The notes below the pieces were generated by a model, which did no database searches, was not told the origin of the DNA, and saw only the letters and a program-made list of their open reading frames with translations. A DNA stretch of 15,046 nt from Dehalococcoidales bacterium (lineage in GTDB: Bacteria > Chloroflexota > Dehalococcoidia > Dehalococcoidales > Fen-1064): assembly GCA_028712845.1 (NCBI GenBank), contig JAQTPO010000032.1, forward strand, positions 1-15,046, written 5' to 3'. Position 1 is the first letter of the stretch. Every line of letters starts with the position of its first letter. Made by a program: the position numbers and the translations under genes. This document shows positions 11,736-14,095 of the stretch, piece after piece.

Positions 11736-11792
11736 GAACTTATTTTTATAGGTTTATCTTGAGTTATAAGTAAATTATTGGAGGGCATGAAA

Positions 11793-11942
11793 ATGGCGAT
11801 TGACCCGGTTTGCAAAATGACAGTCGATGAGAAAAAGGCGGCGGCAACTTCTGACTACAAGGGGAAGAGATATTACTTCTGTGCGAAGGGTTGTAAGATA
11901 GCTTTTGATAAAGCCCCGGAGAAGTATCTGGCGAAGAGCTGA
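11793..11942 (+). CDS. YHS-domain small metal-binding protein
   Basis: A 49-aa protein that is entirely a YHS domain: DPVCKMTV (4-11), Y-K-G-K-R-YYFC (22-30), AKGCKIAF and a final P-EKYL. Conserved cysteines C7, C30 and C34 are the likely metal ligands. YHS domains occur alone or fused to CopA-type ATPases and in other heavy-metal proteins. Its position about 195 nt downstream of copA on the same strand suggests a copper-binding or chaperone-like role (inference). ATG 11793 lies 7 nt after GGAGGG; an in-frame ATG two codons earlier (11787) is only 1 nt from that SD and so less likely. The gene is shorter than common ORF cut-offs and easily missed. Confidence 0.9.
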   Translation: MAIDPVCKMTVDEKKAAATSDYKGKRYYFCAKGCKIAFDKAPEKYLAKS

Positions 11943-12605: not shown

Positions 12606-13520
12606 CTACTTCGGCAGTCTCTGCAAATAGCGGTGTGCCTGAAGAGAAGCTTTAGCGCCCTCGCCGGCGGCAATGACAATCTGCTTCTCCGGTATAGTGG
12701 TAACATCGCCGGCGGCAAAGAGCCCGGATATTTCTGTTTCGCAGGAGCAGTTGACAGGCACTTCGCCTTGCTGGTTCAGTTTGATTAAATCCCCGACCAT
12801 ATCGGAATTAGGTACCAAGCCAATCTCGATAAACACGCCGGTAACATCCAGTTGTTGGATTTTGTCTGTCTTGATGTCTTTGATGACGATGCCTTCCACC
12901 AGGTCTTTGCCCAGAATCTTTTCTGTCTGATGCTCCAGATAAATCGTCAGGTTTTTAGCATCGGATAGTTTTTCAACGAGGATGGGGTCGCCGGTAAGAG
13001 GCGTGACCGATACCAGTTCCACGTGCTCGGCGATTTTTACCATATCCAGCGCCGCTTCGAGTGCTGAGTTACCGCCGCCGATAACTGCCACTTTTTGACC
13101 GGCGAAAATGGGACCATCACAAATAGCGCAATAGGTCACCCCTCTGCCTGTCAATTCCATTTCTCCCTGCACATTTAGTCGTCTGGGACGCTTGCCGGAT
13201 GCTAAAATCACGGCTTTGCTTTGGAATCTATCCCCGGATTCTGAAATGACATCAAACCCGCCGCTAATTTTCTTTACCTGCGAGACTTTTTGCCCCAGTT
13301 TCTTATCGATAGGGAACTGACTGACCTGTTGCTCGAACTTGGAAATCAACTCGTGCCCCTCGATGAACTGATAGCCAAGATAGTTTTCCACGCCGGTCGT
13401 CCAGTTTACCTGCCCGCCGATATCACTGGTGATGAGAAGCGTGTTCAACCGTTTACGTGCGGCATAAACAGCCGCCGCCAGCCCGGCGGGACCACCGCCG
13501 ACTATTATTAGTTCATACAT
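12606..13520 (-). CDS. trxB: Thioredoxin-reductase-like flavoprotein (NADH/AhpF-type)
   Basis: A 304-aa cytoplasmic FAD disulfide reductase of low-Mr thioredoxin reductase type. Visible are the FAD site GGGPAG (8-13), the redox-active C131-A-I-C134 followed by DG, the dinucleotide site GGGNSALEAA (148-157) and the FAD-closing motif FAAGDVTTIPEKQIVIAAGE (268-287). The HRRxxxR motif that selects NADPH in thioredoxin reductases is absent after the nucleotide site; instead it reads EHVELVSVTP, as in NADH-dependent AhpF and the Clostridium pasteurianum Cp34-type enzymes. NADH use is inferred. ATG 13520 is chosen because GGGA lies about 8 nt upstream; ATG 13532 is crowded against its SD. It lies about 200 nt downstream of the glutaredoxin-like selenoprotein gene on the same strand, which suggests the two are a reductase-carrier pair. 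Confidence 0.93.
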   Translation of the reverse strand: MYELIIVGGGPAGLAAAVYAARKRLNTLLITSDIGGQVNWTTGVENYLGYQFIEGHELISKFEQQVSQFPIDKKLGQKVSQVKKISGGFDVISESGDRFQSKAVILASGKRPRRLNVQGEMELTGRGVTYCAICDGPIFAGQKVAVIGGGNSALEAALDMVKIAEHVELVSVTPLTGDPILVEKLSDAKNLTIYLEHQTEKILGKDLVEGIVIKDIKTDKIQQLDVTGVFIEIGLVPNSDMVGDLIKLNQQGEVPVNCSCETEISGLFAAGDVTTIPEKQIVIAAGEGAKASLQAHRYLQRLPK

Positions 13521-13591
13521 AATAATTCCCATCCCGCCAGGTCAAGAAATCAGCCCATAAGGTATCACTTGCTTAGGGCTTTTATGATTAC

Positions 13592-13674
13592 CATTGCGAG
13601 CAGAGCGAAGCAATCTCCGGCTAAATAGCAGAGTATGAGATTGCCACGTCCCGACTTCATCGGGACTCGCAATG
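13592..13674. repeat. 83-bp palindromic REP/MITE-like element
   Basis: It has perfect 9-bp terminal inverted repeats, CATTGCGAG (13592-13600) and CTCGCAATG (13666-13674). Inside are the inverted pair GCAATCTC (13610-13617) and GAGATTGC (13637-13644), and a third hairpin GTCCCGA-cttca-TCGGGAC (13648-13666). CATTGCGAG...GAAGCAATCTC elements are known to me as dispersed intergenic repeats in several anaerobe genomes. It sits between the selenoprotein and flavoprotein genes and would form a large RNA fold in a joint transcript. Confidence 0.75.
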
Positions 13675-13721
13675 TTTTCCTTCTTTTCTTTGCCATCAAA
13701 GGCAAACATAACCATCCGAAT

Positions 13722-13967
13722 TTATTTTGCCAGCAATTCGTCGATTTTTGCCTGATTAAACCCTACGATGACTTCTTCTCCAATCACGATGACAGGGACA
13801 GCCATCTGTCCTGATTTTTGAATCATCTCTTTGGCTTTTTCCCGGTCCTTGCCGACATCGTAATCCGCGTAAGAAAAACCCTTGCTCGAAAGATACTCTT
13901 TCGCTCTAAAGCACCATGGTCAGGTTGTGGTTGAATAAACAGTGATGTTCTTCTTCTGTTCAGACAT
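13722..13967 (-). CDS. Glutaredoxin-like selenoprotein (in-frame UGA = selenocysteine, UPWC active site)
   Basis: A glutaredoxin-fold thiol/selenol oxidoreductase of 81 residues if UGA is read through. Residues 8-15 are ITVYSTTT, then TGA (codon 16, 13920-13922), then PWCFRAKEYLSSKG. Family members have CPxC here, so TGA replaces exactly the nucleophilic first Cys. The rest of the YruB-like glutaredoxin pattern is intact: DYDVGKDREKAKEMIQKSGQ (35-54), the cis-Pro segment MAVPVIVI (55-62), and VGFNQAKIDELLAK at the end, with no other stop or frameshift. A hairpin fitting bacterial SECIS rules follows the TGA. ATG 13967 has GGAGG 6 nt upstream and a near-consensus promoter. Normal callers would see two fragments too short to report. 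The alternative is a nonsense-mutated pseudogene, which the precise position and hairpin argue against. Redox partner: the flavoprotein downstream. Confidence 0.87.
13887..13903 (-). promoter_or_regulatory. Candidate bacterial SECIS hairpin
   Basis: On the minus strand CGAAAGA-GTA-TCTTTCG is a perfect 7-bp stem, or 6 bp with a five-base AGTAT loop. Taking the five-base loop, it starts 22 nt after the UGA and has G at its second position. Bacterial SECIS elements generally place a small apical loop, with a G in its first two bases, 16-37 nt after the UGA. Outer bases (CTT at 13910-13912 with AAG at 13882-13884) could extend a lower stem. The hairpin is within the coding sequence, as expected for SelB-directed decoding. 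Confidence 0.75.
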
Positions 13968-14008
13968 TTTCATCCTCCGGTTTTGATTTTGTAACTCCCG
14001 ATAGCGCC

Positions 14009-14037
14009 ATATTACGTTACAGCTAAATATATGTCAA
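14009..14037 (-). promoter_or_regulatory. Promoter of the selenoprotein (and flavoprotein) transcript
   Basis: On the minus strand TTGACA (14037-14032, perfect), 17-bp spacer, TAATAT (14014-14009). It lies about 42 nt before ATG 13967. An intact strong promoter and SD are evidence that the gene is live. Confidence 0.75.
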
Positions 14038-14095
14038 GGGAATTTAATATGCTGTGATTATTATCACCTTCGAACTGCCAGCAGTCAGCTTTCAG

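Follow-up and report, generated by a model that had tools for sequence, protein, structure and literature searches.

A glutaredoxin-like gene in a Dehalococcoidia-type bacterium very probably reads an in-frame UGA as selenocysteine

Introduction

Glutaredoxins that carry selenocysteine (Sec) are an established, partly characterised kind of protein, to which the gene described here adds a member, and an experimental study by Kim from 2011 is reportedly what stands behind them. The solved structure whose sequence best matches that of our protein, cGrx1 (PDB 7c10; 2.7e-17 over residues 6-80), presumably has a Sec-containing natural form, from Clostridium (Alkaliphilus) oremlandii. A structure model predicted from one sequence (mean pLDDT 78.9), which served only for naming fold neighbours, also had cGrx1 as one of its best matches; over the aligned fold cGrx1 is 45-46% identical to our protein.

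In the portions consulted of three published accounts, Sec-containing glutaredoxin is listed among the bacterial selenoprotein families with the motif UxxC (PMC1794560, PMC9312934, PMC13188914), and in those of two of them the bacteria that carry it include Geobacter, Alkaliphilus and Moorella (PMC1794560, PMC13188914). For Chloroflexi, the part consulted of PMC1794560 counts three selenoproteins, and that of PMC4959059 describes, for Chloroflexi and Dehalococcoidales, both dehydrogenases of the Sec type and the translation factors for Sec. No account of a Sec glutaredoxin in Chloroflexi or Dehalococcoidales was found in the literature searched, and one may exist elsewhere. What may be new here is the breadth of the Sec glutaredoxin across Dehalococcoidia-type genomes, in which it seems common and for which we found no earlier report.

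The window (the whole stretch of DNA analysed, 15,046 nucleotides) contains a gene that resembles the known bacterial Sec glutaredoxins in family, in having a predicted Sec for the first Cys of CxxC, in the single Sec and in a hairpin past the UGA. Unlike them, it represents a YruB-type branch in Dehalococcoidia-type bacteria and has a thioredoxin-reductase-like gene as its neighbour. Its protein scores over the cut-off of GlrX_YruB (TIGR02196), a family from which it differs in that TGA replaces the first Cys codon. The UXX-star (seleno)proteins (NF041212, NF041114) are related glutaredoxin-like selenoproteins; against NF041212 (Uxx-star) the window protein reached 65.8 bits, below the cut-off of 66, and against NF041114 47.1 bits, below the cut-off of 72. 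The motif of UXX-star family 1, as given in the part consulted of PMC13188914, is UxxT, whereas that of the window protein is UxxC.

Results and Discussion

A glutaredoxin frame with a single in-frame TGA

The frame lies on the minus strand (13967..13722), opens with ATG (13967-13965), closes with a TAA whose last base is 13722 and encodes 81 residues with the motif UPWC. The preliminary description had the positions right, though it left the minus strand unsaid, and its view of a glutaredoxin-like frame broken only by a TGA at the first Cys of a CPxC motif is borne out from ATG to TAA: the TGA of codon 16 (13922-13920, minus strand), the predicted Sec codon, is the sole interruption and falls on the first position of UPWC. 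With codon 16 read as Cys, the product matches the Glutaredoxin family PF00462 at 6.6e-19 (68.3 bits against a cut-off of 22.9), and against TIGR02196 of NCBIfam it scores 98 bits, above the curated cut-off of 88.55. The codon of the putative resolving residue, Cys19, is TGC (13911..13913, minus strand). Upstream of the start, the Shine-Dalgarno sequence reported earlier is found as GGAGG (13978-13974, minus strand). The near-consensus promoter that had been proposed further upstream, TTGACA-N17-TAATAT (14037-14009, minus strand), is present but within chance expectation, with two promoter-like sites in the stretch against a mean of 1.2 (sd 0.9) in shuffles, and on these figures it was set aside as a meaningful promoter.

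A thioredoxin-reductase-like flavoprotein is encoded on the same strand (12606..13532, minus), 189 nt downstream of the glutaredoxin frame. The flavoprotein gene directly follows that of the glutaredoxin in all seven of the loci L001-L007, with sbcC upstream in L001-L003 and copA following in L001-L004 and L007; across 13 loci of the family it was found beside the glutaredoxin in nine. Because a thioredoxin-reductase-like gene follows, the protein probably works as a reductase-fed redoxin, and the pairing of the two genes points to the flavoprotein, and not glutathione, as its likely source of electrons.

Elsewhere in the window, a Cys-containing frame of 50 residues lies after copA on the plus strand (11790-11942), and we take its product to resemble a YHS-type metal-binding protein. 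Within the spacer between glutaredoxin and reductase is a sequence whose ends are inverted, ATTGC...GCAAT (13592-13617); allowing for up to three mismatches, the window has a single copy of it, and a shorter exact pattern drawn from it was found in none of 149 loci. Rfam gave no match on the window at gathering scores and none on 13600-14050 up to E 1.

Exchange of TGA and Cys codons among relatives

Relatives were found by tblastn with the TGA read as Cys and, with the window included, amount to 114 distinct places (45 loci from named genomes and others), L046 and L048 having been left out as duplicates of L001 and L004. Codon 16 is TGA at 56 of these places, TGC or TGT at 58 and nothing else at any, a ratio that gives no estimate of frequency because the places were partly hand-picked (40 of the 114 by position, 31 as TGA rows and nine as Cys rows). 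At the partner Cys, all 114 places have TGC or TGT and none has TGA. The preliminary description had considered that relatives might show the gene decaying with further stops; the 50 codons after codon 16 contain no stop in any of the 114 frames. Twelve of the 45 named loci carry TGA, and they belong to Dehalococcoidia- and Chloroflexi-named genomes, six Rokubacteria, Tissierella creatinophila and one Peptostreptococcaceae genome. No relative was confirmed on viral contigs, and the plasmid matches (21 records) were all less than 60% identical.

On a tree of 112 rows, which rests on few columns and leaves out two of the 114 places that fell below the length limit, the TGA/Cys label changes 17 times (14-20 in bootstraps), and the well-supported branches force at least four such changes. 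The nearest genome relative of the window by tree path, L001, has TGT at codon 16.

A downstream hairpin retained in TGA copies

Past the TGA lies a SECIS-like hairpin of 7 bp, CGAAAGA-GTA-TCTTTCG (13903-13887, minus strand), composed of a 5' arm at 13903-13897, a loop at 13896-13894 and a 3' arm at 13893-13887. Its 3-nt loop, GUA, begins 23 nt past the TGA; with the last A-U pair opened, the loop becomes the 5-nt AGUAU, 22 nt from the TGA and with G at position 2, and it is this form that agrees with the perfect 7-bp hairpin claimed at the outset, with its loop 22 nt after the TGA and a G at loop position 2. The scan for such elements was made with our own script, not bSECISearch, and applied the bSECIS limits given in the part consulted of PMC13188914 (loop of 3-9 nt, stem of 4-16 bp, G in the first two loop positions, spacing of 16-37 nt and energy at most -7.5); by this script the window hairpin lies within all of them, at -11.0 kcal/mol with 7 bp and the loop GUA at 23 nt. 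As a fold of a single sequence the hairpin is not significant: when the 60-nt stretch was shuffled, an equally good fold arose in 34 of 200 cases (z -0.78). Among synonymous codings of its six residues it is unusual, as seven Watson-Crick pairs form in two of 1152 (weighted p 0.0019), and the same test with G-T pairs allowed and the relatives' pooled codon use gives p 0.022. The hairpin by itself is weak evidence; it is the comparison with relatives that decides.

The preliminary description had proposed comparing homologues to see whether codon 16 alternates between Cys and UGA and whether only the UGA versions have the hairpin. The alternation is there, and most UGA versions keep the hairpin while most Cys versions lack it: the scan was passed by 47 of the 56 TGA copies and 9 of the 58 Cys copies. 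TGA copies with Lys-Glu at the hairpin (n=29) form on average 6.93 of the seven pairs, where synonymous codons alone would predict 4.45, whereas Cys copies with Lys-Glu there (n=12) form 3.83 against an expected 3.80. Within the 29 TGA copies, pair 7 is C-G in 18, T-A in ten and T-G in one, and pair 8, just outside those seven, is G-C in 21, A-T in four, G-T in two and unpaired in two, the window being one of the latter; from the swaps between C-G and T-A at pair 7 and between G-C and A-T at pair 8, the two arms change together, in a compensatory manner. The hairpin in the window's register is retained in TGA copies and not in Cys copies.

Nine of the 56 TGA copies fail the scan (L003, L009, L029, L058, L081, L100, L095, L098 and L102); L003 does so at -5.6 kcal/mol though all seven pairs form, L009 is the copy of Tissierella creatinophila, and L095, L098 and L102 have no hairpin candidate in the scan. 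The Cys copies that pass include two near relatives of the window, L001 and L047, both by way of other loops. In the window's own hairpin, L001 has six of the seven pairs left, and L047 has all seven (with G-T allowed), but with A in place of the loop G. The hairpins of these nearest Cys relatives look like remnants.

Selenocysteine genes in related genomes

The family of nearest relatives comprises 14 genomes, nine with the TGA gene, four with the Cys gene and one, G412, with no glutaredoxin match at 1e-20. SelB exceeded its cut-off in eight of the nine TGA-gene genomes against none of the four Cys-gene genomes (p 0.007), a value that, like the other Fisher and Mann-Whitney values of this study, overstates independence because the sequences are related. 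G408 has the TGA gene and no SelB match, and G412 has no SelB, but tRNA-Sec is present in it. Of the first 19 genomes, 12 have the TGA gene, and SelB passed its cut-off in 11 of these; seven have the Cys gene, and SelB passed in two. The twelfth TGA genome, G006, has SelB in two contig-end pieces, and G007 and G011 have a Cys gene yet possess SelB.

SelA was over its cut-off in G003, G004, G006 and G007, and neither SelA nor SelB was in G001, G002, G005 and G404. SelD exceeded its cut-off in G003, G004 and G006 and not in the other five of the eight genomes searched, and each of these three SelD genes (on C38, C11 and C53, respectively) holds one internal TGA, as expected for a Sec-containing SelD. 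In G007 the Cys-type glutaredoxin (L007) occurs with SelA, SelB and tRNA-Sec, and with no SelD over the cut-off, so a genome with Sec genes need not have the TGA form.

At its cut-off the tRNA-Sec model did not separate the groups (9/12 TGA and 5/7 Cys among the first 19 genomes), and 5 of 14 control genomes passed as well. Four of the five Cys-genome matches (G005, G011, G015 and G016) reached only 49.7-52.1 bits, and these weak scores, together with the controls that pass, suggest that most tRNA-Sec matches in Cys genomes are other tRNAs; at 59 bits or more, the counts for the first 19 genomes are 9/12 TGA vs 1/7 Cys. An intact tRNA-Sec was found in G006, G007 and five genomes of the nearest-relative family, and not in G003 and G004, the two nearest TGA relatives, in which there were only broken pieces. 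In G003 (C139; L116, about 12714-12662, minus strand) the ends of a tRNA-Sec flank an NN assembly gap about 1 kb from selB, and this split is why both ARAGORN and Rfam missed it. The piece in G004 (C130; L132, 1-230, at a contig end) is a 28-base tRNA-Sec match with one mismatch (25.4 bits) that overlaps a T-box match, and a portion of the flanking sequence recurs unchanged on another contig of G004, which points to misassembly. This piece precedes a T-box-like leader, and the gene after the leader presumably corresponds to trpE.

In a class sample of 393 genomes, SelB was matched in 260 (E 1e-60) and tRNA-Sec in 257 (1e-10); 33 genomes had SelB without a tRNA-Sec match and 30 the reverse, a mismatch that looks like incompleteness. 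The tables for this sample cover 150 listed rows of a longer set, by which 118 of 219 matched genomes were classified, G133 (two TGA) being excluded and one G095 row (TAA) ignored. Among the matches listed, SelB or tRNA-Sec occurs in 55 of 58 TGA-row genomes vs 34 of 60 Cys-only genomes; the codon itself was checked in 40 of the 58, and the other 18 rest on one internal TGA reported by the search. G065, G311 and G369 have a TGA row and no SelB or tRNA-Sec match. Over the best 39 rows the association of the TGA form with SelB is weak (13/14 vs 16/25 for Cys, p 0.05), and for tRNA-Sec the counts are 9/14 vs 17/25 (p 0.72).

Preferred reading and alternatives

We are highly confident that the frame encodes a functional selenoprotein in a Dehalococcoidia-type bacterium, in which Sec is read at UGA codon 16 and the catalytic Cys is very probably replaced by Sec through the in-frame stop. 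That this is a live selenoprotein had been suggested in the preliminary description, and the suggestion is now supported by the exchange at codon 16, by the retention of the hairpin and by the occurrence of SelB with the UGA gene (8/9 vs 0/4); judging from its relatives, the window's own organism probably decodes Sec. Alternatively, the gene could be an ordinary Cys glutaredoxin in which the TGA arose by nonsense mutation or by an error of sequencing, and the TGT of L001 fits such an event, but TGA occupies the codon at 56 of the 114 places compared, no later stop follows it over 50 codons, the hairpin is kept, and neither mutation nor error would strike one codon across phyla; we regard this origin as very improbable.

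It is still harder to believe that TGA is read genome-wide as another amino acid, such as Trp, with no involvement of selenium. Among 120 protein homologues listed of 577, 39 have Trp and 81 have Cys at the position of codon 16, as gene calling under a code with TGA as Trp would give, and the Trp is probably TGA translated by a code-4 gene caller; but the exchange partner is Cys, at the catalytic position, and 14 other window frames of our selection use TGG 50 times and contain no internal TGA, one of them ending in TGA, and it was on the codon use of these frames that a TGA-as-Trp code was set aside. The Sec function might also have been lost recently, so that the TGA and hairpin would be leftovers in a genome where Sec decoding has ceased, and the near relatives G001, G002, G404 and G410, which are without SelB, would accord with this, as would the damaged hairpin that L001 keeps in G001 and the TGA gene of G408, a genome with no SelB match. 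The four SelB-less relatives named first all carry a Cys codon, however, whereas in the window TGA is present, the stem is intact and the loop G is kept, and we consider such a loss very unlikely.

Predicted function and implications

For a working selenoprotein gene, the reading that we prefer, ribosomes would decode UGA codon 16 as Sec by means of SelB, tRNA-Sec and the downstream hairpin, and the product would be a YruB-type glutaredoxin with the active site UPWC. In the catalysis predicted for it, disulfides or other oxidised substrates would be attacked by Sec16 and the resulting selenenylsulfide resolved by Cys19, after which the adjoining thioredoxin-reductase-like flavoprotein would probably re-reduce the glutaredoxin. 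On a broader scale, we lean with moderate confidence towards a thioredoxin-reductase-linked selenoglutaredoxin that is widespread in Dehalococcoidia and has gone largely unseen as gene callers cut it at the UGA, with orthologues that repeatedly swap Sec for Cys along with the loss of Sec genes and with hairpin remnants that may reveal the order of loss.

Standard annotation loses such a gene, of which this locus is a sound example. For a selenoprotein described from a limited number of species, our comparison suggests that it is common in one large, mostly uncultured bacterial group. Because Sec as well as Cys versions occur in the syntenic block, it would offer a good natural series on the gain and loss of Sec, in which it may be asked whether the protein or the Sec genes are the first to go.
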